A stretch of 36,067 nucleotides of DNA from a virus, in IMG/VR virus record IMGVR_UViG_3300042484_000132, positions 1 to 36,067 of that record. One strand, given 5' to 3'. The notes under the pieces were generated by a model. That model searched no databases. It was given only the letters and a program-made list of their open reading frames with translations, and had not been told where the DNA came from. The position numbers were made by a program, and so were the translations under genes. Positions 8,892-36,067 of this stretch are shown piece after piece; the first letter of the stretch is position 1, and each line of letters begins with the position of its first letter.

Positions 8892-9806
8892 ATGCCAAGG
8901 CCCAATGGAGGAGTAGTAGGACCACAAAAATCCGGATTTTCAACCGCACCCACTGGTATAGTGACCTTGACAGATTTGCAGTTAACTAAGGTACAAAGTT
9001 ACTTGATTAGTATACTTCTTATTGGAGCAGGTGGAGGTGGTGGTGGCGATGACGGCGGATCCAATGGAGGTGGCGCAGGCGGCGGGGCTTCTGTAATTGG
9101 AGATTATACTGTTACTGCTGGAACAATTTTAAGTGTATATGTTGGCGGTGGTGGCGGTGGTGGATCAAGCGATGGTGGCGGTGTACCAGGCGGTGCCGGC
9201 GGAACCAATGGTGGCGGACCTGGTGGTGCATCTGGTGGTACACCATCTTCAGGAGGCGGCGGTGGTGGTGGTGGGTGGAGTGGAATAATGCAAGGTGCTG
9301 CTTATCTAGCCGTTGCAGGTGGAGGTTCTGGCGGCGGTGGAGCAACCGAAGGCGTAGCCAACGACGTTAATGCAGTCGGTGGTGGTGTACAAAATAATGG
9401 TGCAAATGGAACAAGCACAACAGGCGCCACCGGTGATCAGTACGGTGGTGATGGTGGCGGTTTTGCAGGTGGTGGCGGCGGCTATTTTGGCGGAGCAAAA
9501 CAAAATACCAGCAACGGAGCAACAAGTGGCGGCGGTAATTATTCCGCAGGAGTGACTGGTGCAACAGTTGCTAACGGCAGTACCGCAAGTGGCACTACCG
9601 GCGGCGCAGCCCTGTCTCCAACATTTACTGGGTACTCGGGCACTTACGGAAAAGGTGGTAACCGTGTTACAGCTGGAACAGGCGGTATAGTTTTAATTAG
9701 GTACGAAGGATCAGTTCAACGAGGATCTGGTGGCACTTATAGCACAGCCGGGGGATTAAGTTATCATACATACACTACTCCGGGAAGTTTTACGTTTACT
9801 GGATAG
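8892..9806 (+). CDS. Glycine-rich adhesin-like tail-fibre tip protein
   Basis: A 304-residue protein lacking the MAFP anchor and stalk and consisting almost wholly of the glycine-rich tip domain. About residues 45-270 contain runs of Gly separated by short variable segments, then 'GTGGIVLIRYEGSVQRGSGG' and the tail 'YHTYTTPGSF'. This is the same architecture as the C-terminal domains at 4134, 10232 and 11933, here as a free-standing gene. T-even-type gp38 adhesins are separate proteins with polyglycine motifs that bind the fibre tip, so a detachable receptor-binding adhesin is a reasonable inference. The start codon follows the upstream stop by one base. No enzymatic motif is visible. Confidence 0.7.
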   Translation: MPRPNGGVVGPQKSGFSTAPTGIVTLTDLQLTKVQSYLISILLIGAGGGGGGDDGGSNGGGAGGGASVIGDYTVTAGTILSVYVGGGGGGGSSDGGGVPGGAGGTNGGGPGGASGGTPSSGGGGGGGGWSGIMQGAAYLAVAGGGSGGGGATEGVANDVNAVGGGVQNNGANGTSTTGATGDQYGGDGGGFAGGGGGYFGGAKQNTSNGATSGGGNYSAGVTGATVANGSTASGTTGGAALSPTFTGYSGTYGKGGNRVTAGTGGIVLIRYEGSVQRGSGGTYSTAGGLSYHTYTTPGSFTFTG

Positions 9807-10231: not shown

Positions 10232-11917
10232 ATGGGATTTCCTAATACGCCCAGTGATGGACAACCAGCAACAGTAAATGGTATTTTATATACCTATAGT
10301 AGTGCAAGAACTGCATGGGTTCGCACCTCAACCAATGATCGTGCGTTATTTACAGCGTCCAATATTGCACCTACTAGCCCAACACTGGGCGACAAGTGGT
10401 ATTACATTGCCACGGAAGTGGTATACGAATATATCAACGACGGTACAACTAATTATTGGGTTGATACATCCGGTGCTGTTTATAGCTCCAATGTAAATAC
10501 ATCAATGACATTGATTGGTGATACATTATTATCAGGAAATATTATACCTGTAGCAAATGTTGTATATAGTTTAGGTAATACAACTAATAGATTCAAAGAT
10601 CTATTCCTAAGTGGCAACACAATTGATCTTGGCGGTGCTACAATCAAAACTGATGCTACCAGTGGGGCAATTGCACTGATTCCACAGCCAACTGTAACGA
10701 ACCCAAATCCAACAGGTATTGTTGTTTCTGCTTCGGGAACTGTGAGCACTGTCACCACCACTGGTGGGGTATTAACTACAAATGCCATTAGTAATTCATC
10801 TAATACTGCAACTGCAACTAATACAACTACATTTGGGAATGTAACTGTATCTGCCAACATTGTTACAGCAAATGTTTATGCAGATAGATTCTTCTACTCC
10901 AATGGTGTAGCATTTAGCAGTTCAAATTTTGGAAATACCGAAGTCGCGGCATATCTATCAAGTAGTAACGCTGTTGTAGGTACCGGGGCAATAACAGTTC
11001 CGTCGGGAAATACAGCGCAAAGACCTAGTTCTCCCTCGGTAGGAATGGTTCGATTTAATTATACCTTGGGTAGATATGAGGCGTACCTACCTGCAGGTGG
11101 CTGGCAGAATCTTTTATCAGACAGTTACACAGTTGATTATCTTATCGTTGCTGGTGGTGGTGCAGGTGCAGGTGGCCAAGGCGGTGAAGGATCTGGCGGT
11201 GGTGGTGGTGCAGGTGGATTACTACAAGGAAATGTTACTGTATACCCGCAAACATCATATACGATTACTGTTGGTTCTGGAGGAACAGGAGTAGCCAACG
11301 ACGCAGGATCGGCCGGTACTGATTCAAGCGCACTTGGTTCAACATCAATTGGTGGCGGACGCGGATCGCAAGGTCATGCCGCAAGTAGCCAAACTGCATC
11401 AAATACCATGGGAGGTGGTTCTGGTGGAGGTAGTGGGTTTTTTGGATCTACTTTTGGAGCAGGAACTGCCGGACAAGGTAATGCCGGAGGAAATTCTGGT
11501 GGTGGCGCTGGTGCTGGTGGCGGCGGTGGTGCAGGTGCTGCTGGTACCGGTGGAACAAGTGGGACTGCTGGTGCTGGTGGAGTTGGGCTTGCTTGGTTAA
11601 ATGGTACATACTATGCTGGCGGTGGTGGTGGCGGATTACATCAGTCTAGTACAGGAGGAGGCGCAGGCGGTAATGGCGGAGGTGGCAACGGAGGAAACAA
11701 TTCCAGCGGTTCGGTGAATCCAGGAACCGTAAATAGCGGTGGAGGTGGCGGTGGCGGTGGAGAAAATCCAATATCTAGTTCAACCGGCGGGTCTGGTGGG
11801 TCAGGTATAGTTATTTTACGTTACATTGGATCGCAAAGAGGAACTGGCGGAAGTGTCTCATCATCCGGCGGTTATACATATCATACATTTACAGGGTCAG
11901 GTTCATTCTTGGCATAA
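10232..11917 (+). CDS. Modular tail fibre with anchor, linker and glycine-rich tip
   Basis: A 561-residue protein. Residues 1-32 form the shared anchor (MGFPNTPSDGQ...YTYSS...AW). About 42-88 form the 'P..GDKWYY....VYEYINDG' module, 103-242 the linker module shared with the genes at 4134 and 11933, and about 303-530 the glycine-rich domain ending in 'GGSGIVILRYIGSQRGTGG' and 'YTYHTFTGSGSF'. It follows a late promoter box. The architecture is almost the same as the next gene, so the pair are paralogues with different tips. Receptor binding by the glycine-rich tip is inferred from analogy to polyglycine adhesins. Such repeated genes could recombine, with consequences for host range. Confidence 0.78.
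   Translation: MGFPNTPSDGQPATVNGILYTYSSARTAWVRTSTNDRALFTASNIAPTSPTLGDKWYYIATEVVYEYINDGTTNYWVDTSGAVYSSNVNTSMTLIGDTLLSGNIIPVANVVYSLGNTTNRFKDLFLSGNTIDLGGATIKTDATSGAIALIPQPTVTNPNPTGIVVSASGTVSTVTTTGGVLTTNAISNSSNTATATNTTTFGNVTVSANIVTANVYADRFFYSNGVAFSSSNFGNTEVAAYLSSSNAVVGTGAITVPSGNTAQRPSSPSVGMVRFNYTLGRYEAYLPAGGWQNLLSDSYTVDYLIVAGGGAGAGGQGGEGSGGGGGAGGLLQGNVTVYPQTSYTITVGSGGTGVANDAGSAGTDSSALGSTSIGGGRGSQGHAASSQTASNTMGGGSGGGSGFFGSTFGAGTAGQGNAGGNSGGGAGAGGGGGAGAAGTGGTSGTAGAGGVGLAWLNGTYYAGGGGGGLHQSSTGGGAGGNGGGGNGGNNSSGSVNPGTVNSGGGGGGGGENPISSSTGGSGGSGIVILRYIGSQRGTGGSVSSSGGYTYHTFTGSGSFLA
10538..10957 (+). repeat. Fibre linker module, copy 2 of 3
   Basis: About 140 codons matching the copies at 6621-7023 and 12221-12640 in protein sequence (FKDLFLSG.TIDLGGATIKT ... 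DRFFYSNG.AFSSS). Many third-codon-position differences separate the copies. Confidence 0.85.
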
Positions 11918-11932
11918 GGATAAAAAAAATAA

Positions 11933-13609
11933 ATGGCATTCCCAGTCGCACCAATTAACGGTCAAGAAACCACTATAAATGGTATCATATACATTTTTAG
12001 TAGTAGCAATAACGCATGGACACGAAAGCCAAGACAATTATATATAGCAGGAGCGAATCCTCCAGCCAACCCAGCTGCTGGTGATCAGTGGTATGATACC
12101 AGTGACGATATTCTTTATCAATATACCAGTGATGGCACAACAGATTTTTGGTTAGATATTCGTTCAGGTATATTTGGTGGTAATGCAGGTAGCGTATTGG
12201 GCGATACAACTATTACTGGAAATTTGGTTCCCAGTGCAAATGTCACTTATAATTTAGGATCATCGGATTATAGATTCAAAGATCTATTCCTAAGTGGCAG
12301 CACAATCGACCTTGGTGGTGCCACAATTAAAACTGATGCCACTAGTGGAGCAATTGCACTGATACCTCAGCCAACAGTGGCAAACCCGAACCCAAAAGGC
12401 ATTGTGGTCTCTCCTGCCGGTACAGTGAGCACTGTTACTACTACCGGAGGCGAGTTAGCTGCCAATGCTATTAGCAACTCATCTAATACTGCAGTTACAA
12501 CAAACACAACCACGTTCGGGAATGTAACAGCAAACGGTAATGTAATCACGGCAAATGTATACGCAGATAGATTCTTCTATTCCAATGGAACTGCATTTAG
12601 TAGTTCAAGTTTTGGTAACACAGACGTCGCAGCATATTTAACTAGTACCAGCGGACTAGGCTCGGCCACTAGTGGTTTAGTATTACCAACTGGGACTACA
12701 GCACAAAGACCAGCAACAGCAGCAAACGGAACTATGCGATATAATAGTTCAACTAATCTAATAGAAGCATTTTTTGGAAATGTTTGGGTTAGTGTAGCAC
12801 AAGCCTCTTACATTGCTTCATACTTAGTTGTCGCCGGTGGCGGTGGCGGTGGTGTACAAGTTGGTGGTGGTGGTGGCGGTGGTGGTGTATTGTCTGGTAC
12901 TATAAGCGTTTTTTCTGGGCAAAGTTATTCTATTGTAGTCGGAGCAGGAGGCACCGGATCATTAAATAGTAATTCACCTGGTAGCAAAGGTGCAAATTCT
13001 ACTGTTGGTGGATCAACCATTATTGCACAAGGCGGTGGTGGTGGTGGATCATATGGTTCTAATAACGGAGCAACTACTGGCGGTTCTGGAGGTGGTGCAG
13101 GCGCAGGAACAGGTGGTACAACTACCGGCGCATCCGGTGTTGCTGGGCAAGGTTATGCGGGTGGTAATTCGGTACAAAATAGTTGGGCAGGTGGTGGAGG
13201 CGGTGGCGGCGGTGGTCCGGGGTCAAATGCTTCTCCCAATATTGGTGGTAATGGCGGTATAGGATTTATGTCAAATATTGCCGGTAGTGTTCAGTACTAC
13301 GGAGGTGGTGGCGGTGGGTGTAGTGATACAGCAGTATCAACTCTGGCATCTGGTGGTTTAGGTGGTGGCGGTGGTGGATGGAGTACAAACTTCCATCCAG
13401 GTGCGAATAACAACGGAACTGATAACACAGGTGGTGGTGGCGGAGGACAAAGAGACTATCCATCAAGCAATGGACCTGGTGGTAATGGAGGGTCTGGTAT
13501 TGTTATTATTTCTTATCCCGGGTTGCCAAGAACTAACAGCGGTATCGTAACACAAGGTAACGGATATACTATACATACGTTTACTGGTACAAGTACTTTT
13601 ATAGCATAA
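11933..13609 (+). CDS. Modular tail fibre with anchor, linker and glycine-rich tip (paralogue)
   Basis: A 558-residue protein, closely similar in plan to the gene at 10232. It has the anchor at 1-32 (MAFPVAPINGQETTINGIIY), a 'P..GDQWYD..DDILYQYTSDG' module at about 37-80, the linker module at 97-236 and a glycine-rich domain at about 296-525 ending 'GGSGIVIISYPG', then 'YTIHTFTGTSTF'. The start follows AAGGATAAAAAAAATAA. The glycine-rich part differs in loop sequence and spacing from the neighbours, which is what would be expected of alternative receptor-binding tips. The tip contains one Cys (in 'GGGGCSD'). No catalytic motifs were found. Confidence 0.78.
   Translation: MAFPVAPINGQETTINGIIYIFSSSNNAWTRKPRQLYIAGANPPANPAAGDQWYDTSDDILYQYTSDGTTDFWLDIRSGIFGGNAGSVLGDTTITGNLVPSANVTYNLGSSDYRFKDLFLSGSTIDLGGATIKTDATSGAIALIPQPTVANPNPKGIVVSPAGTVSTVTTTGGELAANAISNSSNTAVTTNTTTFGNVTANGNVITANVYADRFFYSNGTAFSSSSFGNTDVAAYLTSTSGLGSATSGLVLPTGTTAQRPATAANGTMRYNSSTNLIEAFFGNVWVSVAQASYIASYLVVAGGGGGGVQVGGGGGGGGVLSGTISVFSGQSYSIVVGAGGTGSLNSNSPGSKGANSTVGGSTIIAQGGGGGGSYGSNNGATTGGSGGGAGAGTGGTTTGASGVAGQGYAGGNSVQNSWAGGGGGGGGGPGSNASPNIGGNGGIGFMSNIAGSVQYYGGGGGGCSDTAVSTLASGGLGGGGGGWSTNFHPGANNNGTDNTGGGGGGQRDYPSSNGPGGNGGSGIVIISYPGLPRTNSGIVTQGNGYTIHTFTGTSTFIA
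12221..12640 (+). repeat. Fibre linker module, copy 3 of 3
   Basis: About 140 codons, the third copy of the linker module. It is closest to copy 2 at DNA level, for example around the shared RFKDLFLSG segment, yet carries scattered synonymous changes. Confidence 0.85.
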
Positions 13610-19979: not shown

Positions 19980-21170
19980 ATGTCCAATCCGTATACAGGT
20001 AATGTAACACTAGATTCTAATTTAAATACTAGTCTAAGTCTAAAAACGAAAAGCTTGTTTTCTGGCAATACTGGTGCCGGCGCCGGCCCAATTGCATTTG
20101 ATGATAATTTAGTAACCTATGGGGAATCAGAACTAACACTAAATGCAAAACGCAAGGAGATAATCGACTATATCAGATTACGTTTAGGCGACGGCATTGT
20201 TGATGTTGAGCTAGACAAAGAACATTATGATCTGGCCATCAATCAGGCGCTAATTAAATATCGTCAACGTGCTCAAAATGCAGAAGAAGAAAGCTATGCA
20301 TTTTTAGAATTGCAACCTGAAGTGCAAGAGTATATATTACCACGAGAAACAATGACAATTCGTGCAGTGTATCGTCGTGGTATTGGTAGTGTTACAGGAA
20401 CCACAGCAAGCCAGTTTGAACCGTTTGCAAGTGGCTATTTGAACACATATATGCTAGCAGCAGGTAGAGTGGGTGGCTTGTTAAGTTATGAACTTTTTAC
20501 AGGTTATCAAGAAGTAACCATGCGTATGTTTGGTGGGTACATGAACTTTACATGGAATCCTACAACCAAAAAAATTACATTGATACGAAAAATGCCGCAA
20601 ACCGGCTACAGTTATCATCGCATGACTTCATTGACATCAAACGGACTTAGTATTGGATCAACTATTACTATCGAAGTAGAAGATTCTTGGAATGATCTCA
20701 GTGTTGGTGATATTATTGCTATAAGAGACTGTAAGATCGGCGGATATGATGGAAACTATTATGTGCTAACGGTATCTGACAATTTAAAAACAGTAACAGT
20801 ATCGGCAGTTAATCCACTAGTGGCAACAAGTGTAACCGGAAACGATTTACGTTTAACCAAAGTGTATGGGAATGTAACTGATGCAGTAAAAGAAACTGTT
20901 TTGCTTTGGGTTTACAATACCAAACCAGACATTATGTTGTTTAATGATGTGCATGCATTTCCGTGGTTACAGGATTATGCATACAGTTTTGCCAAGCGAA
21001 TAGTTGGTGAAGCCAGAGAAAAGTTTGCAAGCATTGCCGGACCACAAGGTGGTACACAACTTAATGGTGCAAGTTTAAAAGCAGAAGCAGCAACAGAAAT
21101 GGTCGAACTAGAACAACAATTAAAAGATTATGTTGATGGGTCGCAACCGTTAACTTGGGTTATTGGATAA
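19980..21170 (+). CDS. gp13: Neck protein, gp13-like
   Basis: A 396-residue protein. 'KEIIDYIRLRLGDGIVDVEL' (about 55-74), 'YDLAINQALIKYRQRAQNA' (about 82-100), 'EESYAFLELQPEVQEYILP' (about 102-120) and 'ETMTIRAVYRRGIG' match the gp13 family of marine T4-like phages. T4 gp13 (309 residues) joins gp14 to form the neck that closes the filled head and receives the tail. A beta insertion at about 220-300 (GSTITIEVEDSWNDLSVGD) adds length. The C-terminal helix (EAATEMVELEQQLKDY) is typical. A late box and a good ribosome-binding site support late expression. It is on the opposite strand from the gp15 operon, unlike T4, where genes 13-14-15 run together. Confidence 0.8.
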   Translation: MSNPYTGNVTLDSNLNTSLSLKTKSLFSGNTGAGAGPIAFDDNLVTYGESELTLNAKRKEIIDYIRLRLGDGIVDVELDKEHYDLAINQALIKYRQRAQNAEEESYAFLELQPEVQEYILPRETMTIRAVYRRGIGSVTGTTASQFEPFASGYLNTYMLAAGRVGGLLSYELFTGYQEVTMRMFGGYMNFTWNPTTKKITLIRKMPQTGYSYHRMTSLTSNGLSIGSTITIEVEDSWNDLSVGDIIAIRDCKIGGYDGNYYVLTVSDNLKTVTVSAVNPLVATSVTGNDLRLTKVYGNVTDAVKETVLLWVYNTKPDIMLFNDVHAFPWLQDYAYSFAKRIVGEAREKFASIAGPQGGTQLNGASLKAEAATEMVELEQQLKDYVDGSQPLTWVIG

Positions 21171-21550
21171 TGAAGATCAAAGACATCGTTACAGAAGAAA
21201 ACAGTAAAGGCAAATTATCAAAACGCCAGCAGCAACCAACCCGCGGACTAAACAAATTTAGTGATGGTGATCATTGGAACAGTGATTATACACTATATCG
21301 CTTAGGCCTGGCTGTAGCAGAAACAGATGGGAAAACAGTACCAAAAACAGATAAAGAATCCTGGGTGGGCAAATGGAAAATAACAGCACCTTATAGCCAA
21401 GTGGACCAAGATATGTTAGAAAAAGCATATCAAGCAGTTGGTGCTAGTTATAAAGATATCAATAAAGGCGACATGCGTAGCCAAGAGTTGAAGAGCACAA
21501 ACAAAACTAGTCCGGTTGCTGCAAGGAAAAAGAACAAATACGGGGTTTGA
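21170..21550 (+). CDS. Small conserved protein downstream of gp13
   Basis: A 126-residue protein. The ATG at 21170 overlaps the gp13 stop (TAATG) and is preferred to the upstream in-frame ATG at 21155, which lies inside gp13. It begins 'MKIKDIVTEENSKGKLSKRQ', followed by 'TRGLNKFSDGDHWNSDYTLY' (about 25-44), 'ESWVGKWKITAPYS', 'KAYQAVGASYKDINKGDMRS' and a basic C-terminus. I recognise it as a conserved hypothetical of marine T4-like phages, always small and soluble; function unknown. The opening 'MKIKDIVTE' resembles the short N-terminal peptides of the internal head candidates downstream (29935-36067). Co-translation with gp13 suggests a head or neck role. Confidence 0.65.
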   Translation: MKIKDIVTEENSKGKLSKRQQQPTRGLNKFSDGDHWNSDYTLYRLGLAVAETDGKTVPKTDKESWVGKWKITAPYSQVDQDMLEKAYQAVGASYKDINKGDMRSQELKSTNKTSPVAARKKNKYGV

Positions 21551-21597: not shown

Positions 21598-22257
21598 ATG
21601 ATTATAGGAATCACAGGCTTTATTGGCAGCGGCAAAGACACCGCAGCAAACTATCTTGTGGCACAACACGGATTTAGGCGTGATAGCTTTGCTGGCGCAC
21701 TTAAAGATGCAGTGGCTCAGATATTTGGGTGGGATCGCGAGCTACTGGAAGGACTTACACCTGAAGCCCGCGAATGGCGTGAGCAAGTGGATCCATGGTG
21801 GGCAAAACGTTTAGATATGCCCCGCTTAACTCCAAGATATATGCTACAACTTTGGGGCACAGAAGTATGTAGACAAGGATTCCACGACGATATTTGGATT
21901 GCTAGCATGGAAAATAGACTACGCAAAACAGTAGACGATATTGTTATCAGTGATGTTAGGTTCCCCAATGAAATAGCAGCAATACGTAGAGCAGGTGGTG
22001 TATGTGTTTGGGTACAGCGCGGAGAACTTCCTGAGTGGTATGAGTGTGCTTATACAGAAAATACTACTCCAGATGACCGCCAATGGTTACTGGAAGATGC
22101 ACATCAGCTTATGCCCCAACGATATCCAACAGTGCATCAATCAGAATGGGCGTGGATTGGACAAATGTTTAATTATACTGTTGACAACAATAAAACTGTA
22201 GAGCATTTATACGATCAAATTAAAAATCTGCTACCAGCGGACTTTCACGCCAAGTAG
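21598..22257 (+). CDS. Deoxynucleoside monophosphate kinase (T4 gp1-like)
   Basis: A 219-residue P-loop kinase. Walker A is at residues 7-15 (GFIGSGKDT), and 'RDSFAGALKDAV' and 'DVRFPNEIAAIRRAGG' follow the T4 gene 1 dNMP kinase pattern. The family phosphorylates dNMPs to dNDPs with ATP to supply phage DNA synthesis. The length is close to the T4 enzyme (241 residues). Expression appears to be from its own sigma70 promoter immediately upstream, consistent with an early nucleotide-metabolism gene placed among late genes. The ribosome-binding site lies within a hairpin that transcripts from upstream genes would form but transcripts from the local promoter would not. It overlaps the convergent HNH gene by 38 bases. 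Confidence 0.88.
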   Translation: MIIGITGFIGSGKDTAANYLVAQHGFRRDSFAGALKDAVAQIFGWDRELLEGLTPEAREWREQVDPWWAKRLDMPRLTPRYMLQLWGTEVCRQGFHDDIWIASMENRLRKTVDDIVISDVRFPNEIAAIRRAGGVCVWVQRGELPEWYECAYTENTTPDDRQWLLEDAHQLMPQRYPTVHQSEWAWIGQMFNYTVDNNKTVEHLYDQIKNLLPADFHAK

Positions 22258-22564
22258 TTTTTCCGGTGTTTAATTCTATTCTGCAGTTTGCACAAACAGA
22301 CCTAAGATTTTGCCAATCGTTATTTTTTAAGTTTCCGTCAATATGAAACACAAATAGCTGATTGATTAGTTTTCCCTTGAAGTTACAACGCTCGCAGGTT
22401 GCTTTTTTCTTATACCCTGCTTTTACCCATCCGGGTATTGTCCTTACTTTCTTTCCTTTCCGAATACAGCCGGCGCACATGCGCCTATATCGTATTTTGT
22501 CGCCTGAGTGATAGTTTATAGCAGCAGGATTACCGTTACATGCGGTGCAAAGTGGCCTAGTCAT
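22220..22564 (-). CDS. HNH endonuclease with zinc-binding CxxC pairs
   Basis: A 114-residue protein on the minus strand from ATG 22564; the frame is open to 22669, but that part would cross two promoters and the gp18 start. Four CxxC pairs occur at about C6-C9, C30-C33, C57-C60 and C91-C94. The HNH core is 'HIDGNLKNNDWQNL' (H74, N82, N86), followed by CANC, as in phage HNH enzymes. This family cuts DNA at specific sites and often acts as free-standing homing endonucleases. It is inserted antisense between the dNMP kinase and sheath genes, as expected of a selfish element; a target in a neighbouring gene of related phages is inference. A late box (TATAAATA) sits six bases before the ATG, and no clear ribosome-binding site was seen. 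Confidence 0.82.
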   Translation of the reverse strand: MTRPLCTACNGNPAAINYHSGDKIRYRRMCAGCIRKGKKVRTIPGWVKAGYKKKATCERCNFKGKLINQLFVFHIDGNLKNNDWQNLRSVCANCRIELNTGKTTWRESPLVADF

Positions 22565-22569
22565 AGTAT

Positions 22570-22577
22570 TATTTATA
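22570..22577 (-). promoter_or_regulatory. Exact late promoter box for the HNH gene
   Basis: The minus strand reads TATAAATA exactly. The box is only six bases from the ATG at 22564, so transcripts would have almost no leader. Confidence 0.6.
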
Positions 22578-22583
22578 ACGAAA

Positions 22584-22595
22584 CCTTTCGAAAGG
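22584..22595. promoter_or_regulatory. 12-bp perfect palindrome between divergent late promoters
   Basis: CCTTTCGAAAGG is a perfect inverted repeat lying between the minus-strand late box (22570-22577) and the plus-strand box (22627-22634). It could be an operator or simply a small hairpin; nothing else in the 98-base gap explains it. Confidence 0.35.
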
Positions 22596-22626
22596 CACCT
22601 GTAACCACTAAAAATGTAAACCCTTT

Positions 22627-22634
22627 TATAAATA
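22627..22634 (+). promoter_or_regulatory. Exact late promoter box for the sheath gene
   Basis: TATAAATA exactly matches the T4 late consensus, 28 bases before the gp18 ATG, with AAGGA between. A strong late promoter suits a protein needed in large amounts. Confidence 0.85.
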
Positions 22635-22662
22635 CTAGAAATGTTTATAAAAGGATAAAAAC

Positions 22663-25600
22663 ATGGCACTAGTATCCCCAGGTTTACAAATTACAGTCAC
22701 TGACGAAAGTCAATACGTACCGGGAGCGGTCGGAACTGTACCACTAGTTATTCTTGCTACTGGACAAGATAAACTAAGCCCAGCAGGCACTGTAGCTGCT
22801 GACACCACTGCTTCAAGAGCAGGCAAACTACTGGCTTATAGTAGCCAAAGAGAATTAATTACTGCAATGGGTTATCCAAGCTTTAAACAAAGCTCGGCTG
22901 GTACACCGTTGCACGGCGATGAGCGCAACGAATACGGTTTAATGGCTGCTTATAGCGCACTTGGCAATGTTAATAGACTGTACGCTATTCGTGCAGATAT
23001 TAACCTCGACGAACTAGTTGGAACTAGTGTTCGTCCTACTGGTGCAGTTGCCAACAATACACACTGGATGGATTTAACAGAATCTACCTGGGGTATCAAC
23101 GAGTGGGATGCAGTTACAGGTACCTTTAGTCTTAAAAGTCCAATATTAGTTACTTCTACTGATGATAGTACTTCTAGCGGCAGCCCTGCTATTGAAGTAC
23201 CAGATTCAGATGTTGGTCAGATTGGTAGTTATGCAGTTGCTTTTAATACTGGCAGCAATGCATTGTTATTTTACAAGAACAGAAGTAATACTTGGGTTCG
23301 TTTAGGAACCACAGACTGGCAGATTTCATGGCCTACTATTAAAGGTACAACAACTACTGCTATTCCTGTTGCTAGCCCACAATGGACCATAGTTATCAAT
23401 GGAGTAACAGTTAGTTTAGCGAATACAGCAGATACCAAGTCTGTAGCACAAGTGGCTGCATTAATTAATGCTGCGCCAATTGATGGTGTAACTGCTGCTG
23501 CTGTTGATGGTAAACTTGAAATTTATGCAGACAGCACTGCAGAAAGCGACGGTAGCATAGCTGATGGTAAGATCATTATTGCAAATGGTGTTGGTACACC
23601 GTTAGCTACATTGGGTGTTGTTGCTGGAACATATGCAAATCCATTATTAACATACGGTACATTTGCTGAAGTACCAAGTTGGAGAAGCACCGATACAGTG
23701 CCTCGTCCAAGTGGAAGTATATTTGCAAAATTAGGAGCAACTGGTAGCGGATCTGATGTTGTTATCAAACGTTATAATTCAAGTACAGAATCATTTGCCA
23801 CTTTAGCAGCTCCTTTTTACAATAGAGCAGAAGATGCGTTATACGGATTAGATCCAGCTGGTGGCGGAAACGGAATTGCAGCAGGCACAGTATGGATTGC
23901 TTACGATCCATTACGTACAGACACAGGCGGATTCAAACCATTCCGTAGAAGAGTTGCTGGTCAAACGATCGTAACTGGTACTACACTTAGTGCAACTGCT
24001 TTAACCGCAACTGACGTTATTGTAATTGGTGTTACCTCTATTGGCAGCGCAACAATTACAGAATATACAGTTACACTAACAGGATCTAGTCCTGCCAGCT
24101 TTGTTAGTGATGTTTTAGCAAAAAATATTCCTGAATTGAATATTTCTGTTGGTACAGGTAATGCTATTACATTTACTCACATTTATGGTGGCGACATTTA
24201 CCTAACTGACAGTACCGGGACTCCAACTGTAGAGGCCGGATTTAGCACCAGTACTACTGGTGCAATTGCATATGGTACCACTTTGGCATTAACTAACTGG
24301 GAAGCATTAACATACACTTTCAGTGCAAACGAGCCTTACCAAGCTCCTGTAGATGGTACGTTATGGTATTATAGTGATCCTGCAACTGTTGATATCATGG
24401 TCAACGAAATTGGCGGCTGGAGAGGTTATAGAAATACATCATACTATGATGGTAGCCCAACTAAAACAGATGCACGTGGTTACGATCTAGGTTCCACTGA
24501 TCCCGAAGGCGTTATAGTTAGTGCCAGTGAACCAGAATATCAAAGCGATGGCGTTACTGCATTAGTAGGTGGCGACCTTTGGTTAAATACTGGAGATTTA
24601 GAAAACTATCCAGCCTTATATCGTTATGATGGCAGTGCTTGGGGCTTGATTGACAATACCGACCAAGTTAGTCAGAATGGTATTTTGTTTGCTGATGCTC
24701 GTTGGGACACCACCGGCACTACAGACATTATCACTGGCTCATTACCAGCAGTAACAGATCTAATAGCCAGCGATTACATTGACGTTGATGCTCCGGATTA
24801 TAGATTATATCCACGTGGCATGTTGTTATTCAACACACGTCGTAGTGGATACAACGTAAAACAATATGTAAGTAACAAGTTTAATGCAAATGCATATCCT
24901 GACTTACCTACATCACCGTCGGCTGGCGCACCTAGCTCGTTACCAACTATTAAAAATACTTGGCAAACAGCTAGTGGTTTGAAAGATAACGGCAGTCCAT
25001 ACATGGGTCGTCAAGCACAGCGTAGAATGATTACTGCCGCAATGCAAGCAGCAATTATTGCTAACACAGAAGTACGTGAAGATCAGTATCAATTTAATAT
25101 TATATGTGCTCCTGGGTACCCTGAGTTAATTGACGAAATGGTTTCGCTAAACAATGATCGTGCTAATACAGCGTTTATTATTGGCGATACTCCAATGCGT
25201 TTAGCACCTAATGCAATTGACATTGCCAACTGGAGCAATAACACTAACGGTGATGGTTTAGCAACAGCTGATCCTTACTTGGGTGTTTATTATCCAAGTG
25301 GACAAACAAGTGACTTGTCAGGCAATACAATCACTGTTCCGGCAAGTCATATGGCATTACGCACAATGATTTACAACGACAATGTGGCATATCAGTGGTT
25401 CGCACCAGCAGGTACACGCCGTGGTCTAGTTGATAATGCAAGTAGCATTGGTTATATTGATGCTGCTACAGGCGAGTTCAACTTTAATTCTATTAGAGAA
25501 GGACTACGTGATACATTGTACGAGAACAGAATCAATCCTGTTACTAACCTACCCGGAGTTGGTTTAGTTGTTTGGGGACAAAAGACACGTAACGGTACTG

Positions 25601-29414: not shown

Positions 29415-29909
29415 ATGACTAAGAAACTAGCCGAACTATTTGATCTTCCTGAAGTTCCTGTAGACGCCTCAGCAGAAACCAGCGAAGCATTTCAAACTAT
29501 ACAAGAAAACCAAGACATTATCTCTCAAGTAAATGATGCTATTGATAAAATTGATCTAGCATTGCCCACAGTGCGCGACCTAGAAGCCAGCGACGAAGAA
29601 ATGGACGAGCTTGCAAATCTAGCCAAAGAAAAATTCGAAGATCTAATGGATCTTGGGATGAACATGGATCCCAGATTTGGTGGAGTAGTATTCCAAACTG
29701 CTGGTACATTGCTAGGGCACGCCATTACTGCCAAAACTGCCAAAATGGACAAGAAGCTACGCATGGTCAGCCTGCAGCTACAAAAAGCCAGACTAGATCA
29801 TCAAATGAGTAAAGATGATCCCGGAAGTCGTGCAGTTGAAGGACAAGGAATCGTACTAGATCGTAATGCTCTACTAGAGCAGATTCTCCAAAAGAACAAA
29901 AACACATAA
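29415..29909 (+). CDS. Probable small terminase subunit, gp16-like
   Basis: A 164-residue protein, the same length as T4 gp16. It has an acidic N-terminal part, a helical centre ('DELANLAKEKFEDLMDLGMN', about 57-76; 'GTLLGHAITAKTAKMDKKLR', about 97-116) and the tail 'GIVLDRNALLEQILQKN'. This acidic N-terminus, two-helix core and C-terminal interaction segment resembles small terminases of marine T4-like phages, which regulate DNA packaging by the large subunit. I am only moderately sure, because gp17 does not follow directly as in T4. GGTAAATA six bases before the ATG may be a weak late box. Confidence 0.55.
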   Translation: MTKKLAELFDLPEVPVDASAETSEAFQTIQENQDIISQVNDAIDKIDLALPTVRDLEASDEEMDELANLAKEKFEDLMDLGMNMDPRFGGVVFQTAGTLLGHAITAKTAKMDKKLRMVSLQLQKARLDHQMSKDDPGSRAVEGQGIVLDRNALLEQILQKNKNT

Positions 29910-29912
29910 ATA
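29905..29912 (+). promoter_or_regulatory. Late promoter box heading the internal-protein cluster (CATAAATA)
   Basis: CATAAATA lies 22 bases before the ATG at 29935, with ACAGGAT as ribosome-binding site. No further box was noticed before the following genes, which overlap or abut, so it probably drives the whole cluster to 36067 and beyond. Confidence 0.75.
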
Positions 29913-29934
29913 CTCTATAAACAGGATAAAACCT

Positions 29935-30561
29935 ATGAAAAGTCTACACGCTTACATTGCAGAACGAAACACAAACTACGAGTTTAGGATCAAAGTCGCT
30001 AAACAAAATCCCAAAGACATAATGGAAGAAATTAAGAATGCACTAGATGCATATGAACTAGTGAGTGTTACCGCTCCCAAGAGTCTTCCAGTTATGGAAC
30101 ACAGAGAATTTCCAAAGTGGGGTGCATGCGAGTGCTGGCAGTTTGAAGCCACAGTAGCATATCCAACCACTGCCGCACAGATTGCACAACTACTACGTGA
30201 GCGTACTGGCATGCAAGCCGAGTGGGTATGTGTATATGGTAAACAACAAGCAGAGCAGAATGATTATGCAGAAGCCTATGGTAAAGATCATACTGGTGCA
30301 TTACTATTAGATAACGAACTTAAAGATGTACCTGGTGCACAAGAACTAGTGGGCGATAAGCGCAGAGATAGTATGCTTAAAGAATTAGATACACAGTCGC
30401 CCAAGATGGTAGCATTAGAATCTAATCCTGAACTAACTTCGACTCGTGCTACAGAAAGAACCAAAGCAGCAGCGACAACAAATCAGATTCCACAAGGTGT
30501 TAAGAGTCCTGTAGGATCAAACCAAAATAAAATTACCGACATGCGTAAAGGAAAAAAATAA
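29935..30561 (+). CDS. Conserved protein with capsid-targeting-like N-terminus
   Basis: A 208-residue protein. Residues 1-10 'MKSLHAYIAE' closely resemble the T4 internal-protein capsid targeting sequence, which I recall as MKTYQEFIAE, including the IxE site cut by prohead protease. The body has a conserved folded part ('FRIKVAKQNPKDIMEEIKNA', 'HREFPKWGACECWQFEATVA' at about 56-75, 'YPTTAAQIAQLLRERTGMQ') and a disordered C-terminus ending in 'TDMRKGKK'. The fold looks like a small alpha/beta domain, not recognised by name; I believe it is conserved in marine T4-like phages. It is first in the cluster and has a late promoter. A role inside the capsid is inferred from the N-terminus and neighbours. 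Confidence 0.7.
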   Translation: MKSLHAYIAERNTNYEFRIKVAKQNPKDIMEEIKNALDAYELVSVTAPKSLPVMEHREFPKWGACECWQFEATVAYPTTAAQIAQLLRERTGMQAEWVCVYGKQQAEQNDYAEAYGKDHTGALLLDNELKDVPGAQELVGDKRRDSMLKELDTQSPKMVALESNPELTSTRATERTKAAATTNQIPQGVKSPVGSNQNKITDMRKGKK

Positions 30562-31259
30562 TGTCAAACAATATCTATGATATCCTAAAGAAGTTTAACA
30601 ATCTTGATTCAGTTAAAAATGTATTGTCTGAAGGTAAGACAGTTTGTAAATCTTGCGGCAAAGCAAAATGCAAATGTGTAGACGAAAGCAAAGGCAGCAA
30701 GCCTGACTTTCTTGACATGGACAAAGATGGCGATAAAAAAGAGCCAATGAAAAAGGCTGCTAAAGAAAAAAGCAAAGGTGCTGTTGCTGAAGCAGTTGCA
30801 CAAGTTGAACGACAACTAAATGAAAAGTACATGGGCTTTAAGAAAATGCAAGAAAGTGAAGCCAATGAAGATATGTTGTCACCAGGGCAAAAGAAAATTG
30901 CCAAAATGAGTCCGCCACCTGATAAAATTGATGCCAATGATCTCAAGGCATTACGTGCTGGAAAAGACAAGAAAAAAGAAGGTAATGCCTTTAGTGGTGC
31001 AATGGCCAAAGCTAAAGCCAGTGGTGCAGATGAATTTAAAGTAGGCGGCAAAGAATATGCGGTCAAAGAAGGCTTTCCTACAGTAGCCGACGCTAAAAAG
31101 CGCATGGATGATCGAGAAGGTAAAACTGCACACGGTAAAAAAACAATCACTAAAACTGGTACTAAACACGAACGTGATTATGATGCAGTAGACAAAGGTG
31201 CCGATGTTGACTCAACACCAAAAGGTCGTGGTCGTCCTAAAAAAGATAGATTTGCATAA
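30561..31259 (+). CDS. Lys-rich prohead-core-like protein with Cys cluster, DxDxDG loop and AT-hook
   Basis: A 232-residue very basic and acidic (Lys/Asp/Glu-rich) protein starting in a TAATG overlap. Residues 22-24 (LSE) fit the prohead protease site. C29-x2-C32-x4-C37-x-C39 looks zinc-binding. 'DFLDMDKDGDKKEPMKKA' (about 49-66) contains an EF-hand-like DxDxDG calcium loop. 'NAFSGAMAKAKASGADEFKV' (about 142-161) is a repeat-type module I recall from marine phage core proteins. The C-terminus 'GRGRPKK' (222-228) is an AT-hook, which binds the minor groove of AT-rich DNA. The combination suits a DNA-condensing internal head or scaffold protein. No enzyme domain is seen, and no direct T4 homologue is clear. 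Confidence 0.65.
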   Translation: MSNNIYDILKKFNNLDSVKNVLSEGKTVCKSCGKAKCKCVDESKGSKPDFLDMDKDGDKKEPMKKAAKEKSKGAVAEAVAQVERQLNEKYMGFKKMQESEANEDMLSPGQKKIAKMSPPPDKIDANDLKALRAGKDKKKEGNAFSGAMAKAKASGADEFKVGGKEYAVKEGFPTVADAKKRMDDREGKTAHGKKTITKTGTKHERDYDAVDKGADVDSTPKGRGRPKKDRFA

Positions 31260-33619
31260 TGAAGATCAGTGATATTACCAATGAGGCAGATCAGTCGCCT
31301 CGCCCAGGTAGAGGACCAACTGTTCTGCCTGTTCCAAAACAAAGGGCAGCAGTTGACATTCCGGCAGTGAGATCACCGGCCGGAGAAATCATCGGATCAT
31401 TGATGAATCCTGACCCCGGCATTGAAGATTTTACACAAGCAGCAAGAGAGAAAAATATTCCTGGCATGGCATTGGCCGGAGTGACCGCAGCAGCCGGACC
31501 GTTTGGCAAACTTGGTAAACTTGCTAAAAAAGTATTTGGCAAAGGCGAAAAAACAGCAGCAGACATTGTTAAACGAGATGTTGACATTCCTGCAGCTAAA
31601 GATTATTCTAAATTAGATAGACCTGCAGTACAAAGAAAAGCAGAACCTCAAGCAGCACCAGTGGCAGATGTTCAAATTACACCAAGAACCGGCTCTAGAT
31701 CCGGAAAAGAATTAGATTTAAATAAGCCAGCTGATGCGCCCGCATCTAAAGTAGACGCACCTGTAGTTAATGCTCCGGCTGCGGCCGCAGCAAAAAAGCC
31801 TGGACTAGTAGACAGATACAAAGACTTTCGATACGGTACTACTGATCCTAAAGGAATAGAAGCGGTTAAACAAGCCAGAATTGATACCAAAATTAAACAA
31901 AAAGAGCTTGATAATATTCCTGGATGGGTATCGCGTAACCCAAAAACCGCCACTGCATTAACAGTCGGCGGAGCAGCCGCAGCAACAGATTATGTAACTA
32001 CTCCCGCAGATCAAGAATGGACACCTAGTCTAGGTGGACTTGTTAAAGGACCAATGCGAGCATTCATGGACCCACCTGCTAGCAATACGGGATCTGGTGA
32101 TACAGCAACTGATAGTCCAACTGCTACTCCTAGTTCAGGTTCTAACACAGGTTCTAACACTCCTGACGTTGATACGTCGTGGATTAACGATGGTTCACGT
32201 AGTAGTGGTAACAGTGGTAGTGGAAATAATAGCCCTAGCAATCGTGCTCCTGCTGCGCCAGATGCACCTGCAGCAGCACCAGCATCTGCAGCAGACGAAA
32301 TATCTCCGGAACAATCAGCAGCTGATAGATTAAAAGCCAGAGGCAGCAAGTATTGGCCCAGTGATGGCAAAACCAATGAATCATTGCGATTAACTGAAGA
32401 CGATTCTGAAGCAGTTAAACAATTTCTAAGAAATGTAGTAAGCAGAGAAAGCGGCGGAAAGAATATACAGAATAAATCGGGTAGTTCTGCTTTTGGTATA
32501 GCACAATTTATGCCAAGCACATTTAAAGGCATGGTACAACAAGCACGACCAGATTCTCCTATATACGGTAAAACTTGGGAAGAGTTTAAAGCTGATACCA
32601 ATTTGCAAAAACAAACATTAGCTATTGCAACTCAAGACTATATTAATAAATTAAGATCATCTAAGGTACCTGTTACAAGTGGTTCGTTATACATGAGTCA
32701 TTTCTTTGGACCAGAGAAAGCCACACAAATATTACAGCGCGGTCCTGATGCAACATTATCTTCAGTTATTCCCGAGTATGTACGTAAAAAAGATAAGCGT
32801 ACCGGAGAAGTTAGAATAATCAAGAATCCTGTTTATACTCAGAATCCTAATCTAAGTCCAACCGATACAGTTAGATCAACATATTCAAATCTAAGTAACC
32901 TGATGCAAGATCGTCAAGTGGCATCAGCTAAAAAAGGAAAACTTGCAGCAGCCGGAACAGCAGCACTAGGAGCATTAGTCGGCGCAAAAAGTGCAGAAGC
33001 CGGTGAAATGCCAGGACGTACCAAAGGCGATGCAATGGCGGATTGGTTTAAAAATAAATTTGGATCAGAAAAAGCAACTGCCACAAATAACAAATCAGAT
33101 GTTAAACCTGATCCAACCAAGCCAGCTGCAGCACCAACTCAAGCTGCGCCTGTAACACCTGACAAGCCGACAAAGACATCTGCACCTGTAGCACCTGTAA
33201 CACCTGACAAGCCGACAAAGACATCTGCAGCGCCTGCATCTTCAACAGACAAGACAGCACCTGTAAAAGATACTACTAAGGAAAAACCAGCTGAGCCAAC
33301 TCCTTTTAAGTTTGAACCTATTGCATCACAAAAAGTTGAGCCAGTTAATTTTAAATCAGCCAATCCACAACTGCCTGGAGTAACACACACCGTTGATAAA
33401 ATTGATCCAGATAAAATTTTACAGAAAAACTATGCACCTATAGATAGCAAGTCTGATGATGCTGATGATGAAATAGCAAAAGTAATTAAACAGAAACAAA
33501 GTAGTCCAGCTACTAGCAGCAAGGAAGCAGTTAAGCCAGTTCAATTTGAATCAATAAATACTACACCAGACCCTGAGTTGCAGGATATCTTGTGGTTGGC
33601 AGGAAAGAAGAGAAAATAA
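31259..33619 (+). CDS. Putative internal head protein with SLT-type lytic transglycosylase domain
   Basis: A 786-residue protein. N-terminus 'MKISDITNEADQSP', then an amphipathic/hydrophobic segment (about 70-96) and long Pro/Ala-rich low-complexity tracts. The lytic transglycosylase domain spans about 385-530: 'VSRESGGKN' with the candidate catalytic Glu at E397, and 'SSAFGIAQFMPSTFKG' (about 409-424) are the classic SLT motifs. An LTE site (378-380) just before the domain could allow release by prohead protease. A hydrophobic segment (about 561-580) and 'PVTPDKPTKT' repeats follow; the C-terminus is 'DPELQDILWLAGKKRK'. The domain would cleave peptidoglycan glycan strands without hydrolysis. 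The cluster context suggests packaging in the head and ejection with DNA, similar in idea to T7 gp16; a tail location is also possible. Confidence 0.78.
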   Translation: MKISDITNEADQSPRPGRGPTVLPVPKQRAAVDIPAVRSPAGEIIGSLMNPDPGIEDFTQAAREKNIPGMALAGVTAAAGPFGKLGKLAKKVFGKGEKTAADIVKRDVDIPAAKDYSKLDRPAVQRKAEPQAAPVADVQITPRTGSRSGKELDLNKPADAPASKVDAPVVNAPAAAAAKKPGLVDRYKDFRYGTTDPKGIEAVKQARIDTKIKQKELDNIPGWVSRNPKTATALTVGGAAAATDYVTTPADQEWTPSLGGLVKGPMRAFMDPPASNTGSGDTATDSPTATPSSGSNTGSNTPDVDTSWINDGSRSSGNSGSGNNSPSNRAPAAPDAPAAAPASAADEISPEQSAADRLKARGSKYWPSDGKTNESLRLTEDDSEAVKQFLRNVVSRESGGKNIQNKSGSSAFGIAQFMPSTFKGMVQQARPDSPIYGKTWEEFKADTNLQKQTLAIATQDYINKLRSSKVPVTSGSLYMSHFFGPEKATQILQRGPDATLSSVIPEYVRKKDKRTGEVRIIKNPVYTQNPNLSPTDTVRSTYSNLSNLMQDRQVASAKKGKLAAAGTAALGALVGAKSAEAGEMPGRTKGDAMADWFKNKFGSEKATATNNKSDVKPDPTKPAAAPTQAAPVTPDKPTKTSAPVAPVTPDKPTKTSAAPASSTDKTAPVKDTTKEKPAEPTPFKFEPIASQKVEPVNFKSANPQLPGVTHTVDKIDPDKILQKNYAPIDSKSDDADDEIAKVIKQKQSSPATSSKEAVKPVQFESINTTPDPELQDILWLAGKKRK
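33149..33229 (+). repeat. Two 36-bp direct repeats (45-bp period) in the transglycosylase gene
   Basis: The 36-bp unit at 33149-33184 is repeated exactly at 33194-33229, coding for 'PVTPDKPTKTSA' twice with a short spacer. It lies in the low-complexity C-terminal part of the protein. Confidence 0.9.
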
Positions 33620-33620
33620 A

Positions 33621-35576
33621 ATGACAATGAGAAAACTTTTAAAATTATTTGAAGCACCCGGTGTAGGTGGTTATGCTGGTGTACCAACAGCAACAACGTC
33701 TAATCGTGTACCCAAAATGGCATCAGACGCTGATGTTAAAGTTGCGCCTAATCTATCATCAGGAAAGCCAGTGACAGCAGGAAAGCCAGTAGTTAATACG
33801 CCGGCTGCTCCTTATAGAGGCAGCACTAGCGCACAGGCCATTGCTCAAGCTAGTGGCGTCAAAGATGTCAATAAGATCCAAGCTGGTCAGAAATTAACTT
33901 TACCTGGTGGCGGCAGTTACACTGTGCAAAAAGGTGACACCATGGATAAAATCGCCAAACAAACTGGCAGTGGAGCCGCTGCACCGCAAAGTGATCAAAC
34001 AGCCGCTGGTAACCAAACAAGCAGTGGATATAACGCACAGTCACAAGCTCAAAAAACGCCAGATGCAGCAGAACCAGTAGCAGGACAGCGACCAGGTGGA
34101 GTAGCATTCAATCAAGATGCAGGTACAACATCAGGGCAAGCAGCACCAGCATCACCAGGACAGCGACCAGGTGGAGTAGCATTCAATCAAGATGCAGGTA
34201 CAACATCAGGGCAAGCAGCACCAGCATCACCAGGACAGCGACCAGGTGGAGTAGCATTCAATCAAGATGCAGGTACAACATCAGGGCAAGCAGCACCAGC
34301 AACAAAAAGCTCACTGCCTATTACAACCACCGGTGGACCAACCGCAGCAAATCCTGCATCAGTTAATCCACCTACACAAGGTGGCCCTGCAGTAACAGGC
34401 GGATTTGGTCAAGAAACTAATATCTCCAGAGATTCCGATGATGTAATTGCAAAAAGAACCCCATATGGGCAACAAAATCAAGCAACAAAAAGTTATGACA
34501 GTTTTGGAGATTTTGCTAGTGCAATAGGAAATAAAGTCAAGAGTACATTTGGGGCAAGTAACCCACCTGCTACAATGGAAGAGGAGTTGGAAGAAGATAA
34601 CGAGCTAAGTGAATTAATGCGTCTAAGTGGCCGACCAATGAACAAACCTAAAATGAGTGAAAGCATTATGTTAGAAGCTGGTAGTACACTTGAGCATATT
34701 GTTAAAAAGTTCAAACATGAAACCAAGAACTTCTTGGCCGGAAATGATTTAGACAGCGATCTATACGATGCACTGTATGACTACTATTCAGACAATGGCG
34801 AAATGCCATATGGTGTTGCTAAAGCCCGTGACGGCGATCCTTATCAATGGATCAGTGATAGATTTGCTGACGAAATGCAAATGCATGGTTACGGTAGACA
34901 AGCAGACATGCTGAACATGCCTGGTGCCGATCACGAACTAACAGAACTAGCACGTTTAGCCGGACTAAGCGAAAGCCAAGTAGTTGAATGTGGTGACATG
35001 GATATGGAGCAAAAAGATTCCATGAATGTCAGCACTAACATGAGCAGTGACGGTACCAAGAGTGTAAACATCAGCGCACAAGGCGATCGTGCTGATGCAC
35101 TATTGCAAATGCTAAAGATGGCTGGCATGAGACCACATGACAATGATAACAGCATGGCGATGACAGAGCCAGAAGTTATTATGGTTAGCTCTGCACCACA
35201 TGACGATATGCATGAAGAAGAAATGATGGACGAAGAGTACGCCAACAGTCCGGAACAAGAATACCAAACCATAGATAGCATCATTCATCAAGGCGACGAT
35301 TTAAATCGTGAAAAAGCACAGCATCCAGTGGCCGGTTTTACAGGTGATAACCCATTGGTAGGCGAAGACATATCCTTGGATGAAGAACTACAAGATCTAC
35401 TAGATAGCATATTGTTCCGCGAAGAAATGACTGATGTGCTAAAAGCCGAACAGCCATACCGTGATGAAAAGACTGGCAAGATGGTTACACCCCCAAAAGG
35501 CGCAACAATGCCGCCTCCTGACAGTCAATATCCGCCAGGCGACAAGCGAAACATGATGCCACCTAAGGGAAAATAA
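33621..35576 (+). CDS. Putative internal head protein with LysM-like motif and repeats
   Basis: A 651-residue protein. ATG 33621 directly follows the previous stop; ATG 33627 (MRKLLKLFEAPG) is an alternative start and both keep the LFE site at about residues 9-11. A LysM-like pattern lies at about 72-116, but the usual halves come in reverse order: 'GVKDVNKIQAGQKLTLP' first, then 'YTVQKGDTMDKIAKQTG'. Three 25-residue repeats 'GQRPGGVAFNQDAGTTSGQA' follow (about 155-229). The second half is acidic and Met-rich, with the motifs 'DNELSELMRLSG' and 'DHELTELARLAG' containing LSE/LTE protease sites. LysM motifs bind peptidoglycan, so with the preceding gene this could be a wall-targeting internal protein. 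The function is inference. Confidence 0.65.
   Translation: MTMRKLLKLFEAPGVGGYAGVPTATTSNRVPKMASDADVKVAPNLSSGKPVTAGKPVVNTPAAPYRGSTSAQAIAQASGVKDVNKIQAGQKLTLPGGGSYTVQKGDTMDKIAKQTGSGAAAPQSDQTAAGNQTSSGYNAQSQAQKTPDAAEPVAGQRPGGVAFNQDAGTTSGQAAPASPGQRPGGVAFNQDAGTTSGQAAPASPGQRPGGVAFNQDAGTTSGQAAPATKSSLPITTTGGPTAANPASVNPPTQGGPAVTGGFGQETNISRDSDDVIAKRTPYGQQNQATKSYDSFGDFASAIGNKVKSTFGASNPPATMEEELEEDNELSELMRLSGRPMNKPKMSESIMLEAGSTLEHIVKKFKHETKNFLAGNDLDSDLYDALYDYYSDNGEMPYGVAKARDGDPYQWISDRFADEMQMHGYGRQADMLNMPGADHELTELARLAGLSESQVVECGDMDMEQKDSMNVSTNMSSDGTKSVNISAQGDRADALLQMLKMAGMRPHDNDNSMAMTEPEVIMVSSAPHDDMHEEEMMDEEYANSPEQEYQTIDSIIHQGDDLNREKAQHPVAGFTGDNPLVGEDISLDEELQDLLDSILFREEMTDVLKAEQPYRDEKTGKMVTPPKGATMPPPDSQYPPGDKRNMMPPKGK
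34083..34307 (+). repeat. Three 75-bp tandem repeats in frame
   Basis: Units start at 34083, 34158 and 34233. The first two are identical and the third differs only at its end. Each codes for 25 residues beginning 'GQRPGGVAFNQDAG'. A degree of identity this high at synonymous sites means a recent expansion. Confidence 0.95.
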
Positions 35577-36067
35577 TGAAATCTTTTAAAGACTACCTAA
35601 TGGAAACAGAACTAAACGAAGACTCTCCGAGTCTTGGTGACGTATTTGAATTAGAAATTGCTAGAGAAGAAATTGTATTAGAAACTACAGTTATTGATGT
35701 ACTAGATGATGGTATTGTAATTGAAGCAGATGACACCATGTTACAAATATTGATGCATGTTGGATATCTAAATGAGGATTCAAATATGCCCACTGCTAGA
35801 GATTCAATTAGTCCTATACATGGCAGTAATGATAGAGATATTGACGAAGCAGAATATCAAGGTCGTAACGTACCGCTAGGTAAGCCAATGAAGGGCGACG
35901 TTAAAAAGTCAAAAGTTTATGTTAAGAACGCAAAAGGTAATGTAGTTAAAGTTAACTTTGGTGATCCTAATATGAAGATCAAAAAGTCAAACCCCAAGCG
36001 TCGTAAAAGCTTCAGAGCAAGACATAACTGTGCCAACCCAGGTCCACGTACTAGTGCTAGATATTGG
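35576..36067 (+). CDS. Prohead-core-like protein, 3' end beyond the window
   Basis: The start (ATG 35576) overlaps the previous stop (TAATG) and the frame is open to the last base (164 codons seen). It begins 'MKSFKDYLMETELNEDSP', again like a capsid targeting sequence with an LxE site. A beta-rich part ('TVIDVLDDGIVIEADDTMLQ', about 40-60) follows, then 'AEYQGRNVPLGKPMKGDVKK' and a C-terminal part 'VNFGDPNMKIKKSNPKRRKS', then 'RARHNCANPGPRTSARYW'. This C-terminal half is a string I recall from conserved head-region proteins of marine T4-like phages. The basic C-terminus could touch DNA. The stop codon is outside the window, and the role is inferred. Confidence 0.72.
   Translation, partial: MKSFKDYLMETELNEDSPSLGDVFELEIAREEIVLETTVIDVLDDGIVIEADDTMLQILMHVGYLNEDSNMPTARDSISPIHGSNDRDIDEAEYQGRNVPLGKPMKGDVKKSKVYVKNAKGNVVKVNFGDPNMKIKKSNPKRRKSFRARHNCANPGPRTSARYW

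Follow-up and report, generated by a model that had tools for sequence, protein, structure and literature searches.

A probable set of head-packaged proteins with several types of start tag, and a motif shared with the head scaffold, in an uncultured T4-like phage

We propose that five adjacent genes (A to E) in a 36-kb window, the whole stretch of DNA analysed here and a fragment of an uncultured T4-like phage from a virus record, probably form a late operon of head-packaged proteins that carry ‘address’ tags, most of which a gp21-type protease could cut, while two of the proteins (C and D) would dock through a motif referred to below as ‘LAG’. This reading draws on the tags and their conservation, on gp21 and gp22 in relatives, on the shared motif and on recognisable domains, from which we infer targeting, cutting, docking and ejection; the presence of some homologues in virions comes from the work of others, by way of database notes. 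Comparative sequence evidence supports head targeting well, most strongly for A and E, and lends no good support to a single common tag or to a general proteolytic maturation. The preliminary description had suggested a set packaged in the head by one common tag: the packaged set is supported, given T4-type tags kept in homologues, gp21 in relatives and virion notes in phage PA5oct, but the common tag gives way to at least four tag types.

The five genes run in the same direction with 1-nt overlaps or 1-nt gaps, so that the adjacency and orientation originally described agree with the ORF coordinates (Table 1), and their products are, as had also been claimed, otherwise unrelated to one another (best pairwise E 0.48). 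Upstream lie genes for a tail sheath, a tube-like protein, a head-completion protein (phrog_218, E 4e-39) and a putative small terminase; the window, being a fragment, contains no gp21, gp22 or gp23 gene. Scanning viral contigs, we found 50 loci with A, 80 with E and 80 with the head-completion gene. In 33 non-redundant loci the five genes keep the order A-B-C-D-E to the contig ends, frequently joined by a sixth, F, which is also tagged. A nucleotide search with the window matched nothing beyond 194 bp of the E module, and tblastn of A directly against phage records gave no match; with a divergent relative as the query, PA5oct, Atu_ph07 and Phosso were found. Searches with the major capsid protein place the clade nearest to the T4-like jumbo phages Phosso, Vibrio 2.275.O, PA5oct/MIJ3, GAP32, CBB and XbC2. 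Elsewhere in the window, an HNH-endonuclease-like ORF lies on the opposite strand (22220-22669, -) ahead of the tail sheath gene, and tail-fibre-like genes at 4134-8069, 8892-9806, 10232-11917 and 11933-13609 have glycine-rich C-terminal tips in common, several of them starting with a common MAFPxxPxNGQ...NGIxYxYNSxxNAW segment.

Table 1. Genes, tags and motifs of the cluster, with one tagged gene outside it (positions in the window)
Feature	Coordinates	Strand	Remarks
Candidate T4-type late promoter element (CATAAATACTCTATAAACA) ahead of A	29899..29923	+	ATAAATA conservation; one mismatch to TATAAATA
Gene A	29935..30561	+	208 aa; T4-IP-like start tag and ferredoxin-like domain
Tag of A, MKSLHAYIAE	29935..29964	+	residues 4/7 hydrophobic/aromatic in 42/42; E10 in 32/42
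Gene B	30561..31259	+	232 aa, lysine/acid-rich; start MSNNIYDILKK...LSE
Tag of B, MSNNIYDILKKFNNLDSVKNVLSE	30561..30632	+	start conserved in relatives; mostly ends LxE, then G or S
Gene C	31259..33619	+	786 aa; SLT transglycosylase-like domain, MKIxxI-type start, C-terminal LAG tail
LAG motif, C-terminal end of C (PELQDILWLAGKKRK)	33578..33610	+	
Gene D	33621..35576	+	651 aa; starts MTMRKLLKLFE; LysM, linkers of low complexity, LAG three times internally
Tag of D, MTMRKLLKLFE	33621..33653	+	relatives: MNPKLLRQYADILDE or MNMRDLIDLFE
LAG motif 1 of D (LSELMRLSG)	34605..34637	+	
LAG motif 2 of D (LTELARLAG)	34938..34970	+	
LAG motif 3 of D (LLQMLKMAG)	35100..35132	+	
Gene E	35576..36067	+	164 aa visible, 3' end beyond window; T4-IP-like start tag
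Tag of E, MKSFKDYLME TELNE	35576..35620	+	
Gene E, parts			small beta domain; conserved C-terminal module with Cys/His
Extra tagged gene outside the cluster, MKIKDIVTEE	21170..21550	+	of the type found at the position of C

A single late promoter had been noticed at the front of the cluster, and here the picture is mixed. One mismatch separates each of two sequences, CATAAATA at position 29905 and TATAAACA at position 29916, from the T4 consensus, but such a match is no better than chance (87 one-mismatch sites found, 74 expected), and we have set aside the consensus by itself as grounds for calling a promoter. What does speak for an element is that ATAAATA stands at the same distance before A in 32 of 33 relatives, a conservation owed in part to the stop codon of the upstream gene, which the element contains.

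The N-termini first reported for A, C and E (MKSLHAYIAE, MKISDITNE and MKSFKDYLME) are those of the ORF translations, as are the LSE of B and the LFE of D, and the T4 sequence to which they were likened had been given correctly: IPII and IPIII of NC_000866 both begin MKTYQEFIAE. A and E share with the T4 internal proteins IPI-IPIII an MKxFxxYIxE-like start, hydrophobic or aromatic residues at positions 4 and 7 and a terminal [LI]xE, whereas B, C and D have tags of other types. Against an expectation of 0.0001 in 33 genes of this composition, two genes match the strict pattern MK.[FYL]..[FY][ILVM].E, and a looser version, applied to all ATG starts of the window on both strands, is matched by the starts of A and E only. 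Run over all T4 ORFs, the generic pattern matches only IPII, IPIII and gp24, known gp21 substrates that lose N-terminal propeptides (PMC5694885). As in T4, the gp21 protease is found in relatives of this phage; unlike IPI-IPIII, the cluster proteins are larger, have unrelated mature parts and several tag types, lie in one operon after a putative small terminase and, in A, vary in the cutting residues. A profile of A gave no significant match among T4 proteins and no sign of mature-protein homology to IPI-III; Foldseek paired A weakly with an Ip7 protein (E 0.005), a hit that we do not count as evidence. The tagged gene outside the cluster, listed in the ORF set with a TTG start at 21155, is flanked by neck-like and dNMP-kinase-like genes, and its tag is conserved in the relative G001 as MKIKEIVLEQ.

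Motif patterns were built on the window and G001 and then run on other loci, so that the tests on T4, PA5oct and upstream genes are checks outside pattern building; gene starts in the uncultured contigs were called by script, with single errors possible (two L045 starts, for example). The start types number at least four, namely MKSxxxYIxE (A and E), MSNNIYDILKK...LxEG (B), MKIKEIIxE or MKIxxI...SLNEAG (proteins at the position of C, hereafter ‘slot C’) and MNPKLLRxYxxILxE (D and F), with MNMRDLIDLFEAP as an additional D type. One type may sit on different bodies (A/E; D/F) and one body may carry different types (D, E), as would be expected of exchangeable addresses. In T4 IPIII, genetics assigns targeting to residues 4 and 7, and cutting to residues 8 and 10 (PMC9026906, section 2.6). 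The alignment with T4 internal proteins and relatives that had been suggested as a check bears this division out: all 42 homologues of A have F, L or Y at residue 4 and Y at residue 7, while I or L stands at residue 8 in 37 and E at residue 10 in 32, some homologues having YIAS, YIAA or FYNS, such that the targeting portion is fixed and the cut portion is not.

Further tags were seen in other phages. In Agrobacterium phage Atu_ph07 (L321:10001-10756) an ATG with a good ribosome site lies ahead of the start annotated for AUZ94910, and its use would give the tag MKTLQDYLTES. Syn9, P-SSM4, HTVC008M and Melnitz (L319, L227, L228) have T4-like start tags (MKKFSAFLSEA, MQGFKTFLSEA, MKKFSEIIEAR) in a cluster after the gp41 helicase, some of them on cytidylyltransferase-like proteins.

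A second element, the LAG motif (ELxDILRLAGRK, NELARLAGL), is present in C, in D and at the extreme C-terminus of the clade's scaffold, gp22; this scaffold-shared motif is new, and a function is proposed for it here from sequence. It occurs four times in the window against 0.15 expected, the C-terminus of C reading ELQDILWLAGKKRK, and is absent from A, B and E. The gp22-like scaffold was identified by its position, with gp21 on one side and gp23 on the other; in all 10 relatives readable to the end of the gene its last residues are NVFEIKRLAGLK or a similar sequence (an eleventh locus, L199, ends inside gp22 and was left out of the count). The same ending is found in PA5oct (VEELRRLAGIK) and Phosso (IHELRRLAGIEK), looser forms in GAP32 (FLDEIAKLSGMDKKR) and Vibrio 2.275.O (DLDRLTKIAGIRK), and Flavobacterium phage immuto has VSRWQKLAGIIK. 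In Melnitz, HTVC008M, P-SSM4, C48C1 and T4 other peptides stand at the gp22 C-terminus, and the ending proper to each was not found on its other head proteins; Syn9, whose gp22 gave no clean gene call, is left out here. Among relatives, LAG occurs in 14/14 D proteins and at the extreme C-terminus of 17 slot-C proteins, as opposed to none of 152 upstream proteins (46,240 residues). The gp22-like protein of PA5oct (EST35_0153; L323:4875-5981) is missing from that phage's mass-spectrometry list, on which gp20, gp21 and gp23 appear, as would be expected of a scaffold that is degraded.

It may be that LAG has nothing to do with the head, and is instead a common amphipathic helix, a handle for a protease or chaperone, or a leftover of shared descent. 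The motif is short, a few matches appear spurious (G001 57553, PA5oct 0159 and 0335), and the slot-C bodies form a mosaic family linked by shared pieces, so that their tails are not independent and count as one family. Even so, the excess in the window and the absence from upstream proteins argue against this, as does the spread of the motif over four unrelated families: gp22, C, D and the G001 85749 family (phrog_13484, virion structural protein), a member of which, PA5oct 0206, lacks LAG yet is noted ESI-MS/MS. We therefore regard a role outside the head as unlikely, whilst giving it real weight.

As regards cutting, gp21 (Peptidase_S77) was found in 11/22 related contigs and in 9/9 T4-like isolates, against 0/4 controls (marine phages of other types), and in relatives the first 42 residues of gp23 contain four [LI]xE sites. 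In the window [LI]xE closes the tags of A, B, D and E, and is missing from the start of C (ITNE). Across relatives, 69 of 91 distinct cluster N-termini have [LI]xE in residues 5-26, where shuffling predicts 11.9; for upstream proteins the count is 27/143 against 18.1, with 19 of the 27 belonging to one family, the putative small terminase (MTKKLSELFDLP), which we treat as a standing false positive. The difference between the two sets (p 2.5e-18) is optimistic, since the sequences are related by descent. In PA5oct, [LI]xE in residues 6-26 does not separate virion proteins (20/89) from others (66/316), so the site by itself is not diagnostic.

These proteins might also be targeted to the head and yet stay mostly uncut, with the tags serving as permanent docking helices to core or portal, several of which would contain [LI]xE only by coincidence. 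Residue 10 of A does vary, the PA5oct version without it is still annotated as a virion protein, and T4 IPIII with aspartate at residue 10 is no longer cut but is still targeted (PMC9026906). Set against this, B, D, F and most C and E tags retain a glutamate after a hydrophobic residue, and [LI]xE sites lie far above the expectation from composition, which makes a largely uncut set rather improbable in our view. A small gene between gp20 and gp21 (L204:107 onward; G002 45260-45484, and relatives) begins MIVTELFDP, resembling the start of T4 Alt (MELITELFDE); its PA5oct counterpart starts MKINDIITE.

Preferring, then, tags that are cut in most of the proteins, we turn to a cultured relative, the Pseudomonas jumbo phage PA5oct, in which gene order around A is conserved. 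EST35_0202 (the A homologue), 0203, 0205 and 0206 are noted in the database as ESI-MS/MS (virion proteins), as are the tagged proteins 0150 (MKINDIITE, between portal and gp21), 0235 and 0238 (MKIKDILVE). The segment EST35_0202-0206 thus resembles our cluster in gene order, in its A homologue, in a LAG protein beside A and in these notes; it differs in that A (MKSFRDYYDA) keeps residues 4 and 7 and lacks the cutting residues, that LAG stands at the N-terminus of 0203, and that no slot-C enzyme was seen. The mass-spectrometry list also includes replication enzymes and enzymes of nucleotide metabolism, so the notes are no proof of head location and are taken as supportive only. Among the hits, enrichment is weak for tags (p 0.07) and reaches p 0.009 for LAG; the virion proteins of PA5oct show no enrichment of IP-like tags.

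The likely cargo includes enzymes of the cell wall. C has an SLT-like domain that spans roughly residues 383-513 (E 0.0007, narrowly under the Pfam cut-off) and matches phrog_4067 (transglycosylase) at E 3e-14, with SLT reaching E 8e-19 in slot-C relatives, among which GH19-like, GDSL lipase with an endolysin-like part, and LysM domains also occur. Some of these relatives match phrog_342, the T7 gp16-type internal virion protein with an endolysin domain; both have a virion-associated transglycosylase domain, but similarity lies around the SLT part, and here there are address tags at both ends. The model of A (mean pLDDT 67) has a short N-terminal helix at residues 4-11 and a ferredoxin-like domain, for which fold comparison gave nothing beyond the common arrangement (Z at most 7). 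That of E (mean pLDDT 60) has a tag helix, a small beta domain and the conserved C-terminal module. This Cys/His module is highly conserved; Kolga and other phages that lack gp21 have it on its own and with no tag, whereas in the T4-like C48C1 it is tagged MKKFKQYIDE. The module (35840-36067; L231:8016-8255; L229:11932-12249), with the sequence KVYVKN...FGDPNMxIKKSNPKRRKSFRARHNCxNPGPRxxARYWSCRxW, is widespread in marine phage types, alone or fused.

That A to E are instead parts of the neck, tail or baseplate, with ordinary assembly helices at their N-termini, no head targeting, and murein domains working at the tail tip like those of many contractile phages, would suit the position of the cluster after sheath, tube and head-completion genes and the match of some slot-C proteins to tail lysozymes (phrog_17230, phrog_2013), but is improbable in view of the match to the T4 internal-protein tag with its identical residue pattern, of a LAG motif common to the head scaffold and absent upstream, and of the head-class PHROG matches (phrog_342, and phrog_14802 for A at E 0.0095 only).

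Retaining the head as the destination, we note that, of 18 LAG tails at a C-terminus, 16 are closely preceded by [LIV]xE, mostly as VPES, ITES or INET, as if both ends of slot-C proteins were removable address peptides; the window's own C has no such site directly before its tail (QFES). T4 gp22 contains ITESINTPD, like the VPESINTEL/ITESINKEI that precedes slot-C LAG tails, although its own C-terminus is not of the LAG type, whereas gp22 of this clade ends in LAG; unlike gp22, C and D are no scaffolds. Two-ended processing such as we predict for C is known from T4 Alt (PMC9026906), the start of which resembles LFE-type tags of D (MNMRDLIDLFE); Alt is an ADP-ribosyltransferase, and C and D instead have murein-related domains. 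We tentatively suggest, at somewhat less than an even chance, a ‘two-ended’ address in which a cleavable N-terminal tag is combined with a copy, C-terminal or repeated internally, of the peptide that ends the scaffold, cut off by the same protease, such that cargo is loaded by imitation of the scaffold; its logic would resemble that of the shell-binding tail of herpesvirus scaffolds.

Synthesised into a model, a short amphipathic start peptide would hold each protein to the core of the assembling prohead, like the T4 capsid targeting sequence, and in most (A, B, D and E) this address would end in an [LI]xE that a gp21-type prohead protease could cut. The LAG helix, at the end of C and internal in D, might dock cargo to the partner of the gp22 tail, be it shell or core, with a cut just before LAG then freeing the enzyme, much as in the two-ended processing of Alt. 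At infection the contents of the head would leave with the DNA, and the murein enzymes may aid passage through the wall.

To our knowledge, worked examples of capsid targeting sequences beyond T4 are few. Such sequences have been suggested as a general way of loading varied proteins in T4-like phages (PMC9026906), and the cluster described here would provide a whole operon in a widespread uncultured phage group, with the expected residue pattern in dozens of relatives and exchangeable cell-wall enzymes as cargo. If true, the two-ended address would add to the T4 capsid targeting sequence a second route of loading, one for which we found no description in the literature, and the motif common to scaffold tail and cargo offers a simple, testable idea of how cargo is held to the scaffold and released. 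LAG would also allow head cargo to be predicted from sequence, and could account for many of the ‘structural, unknown’ proteins of T4-like jumbo phages.
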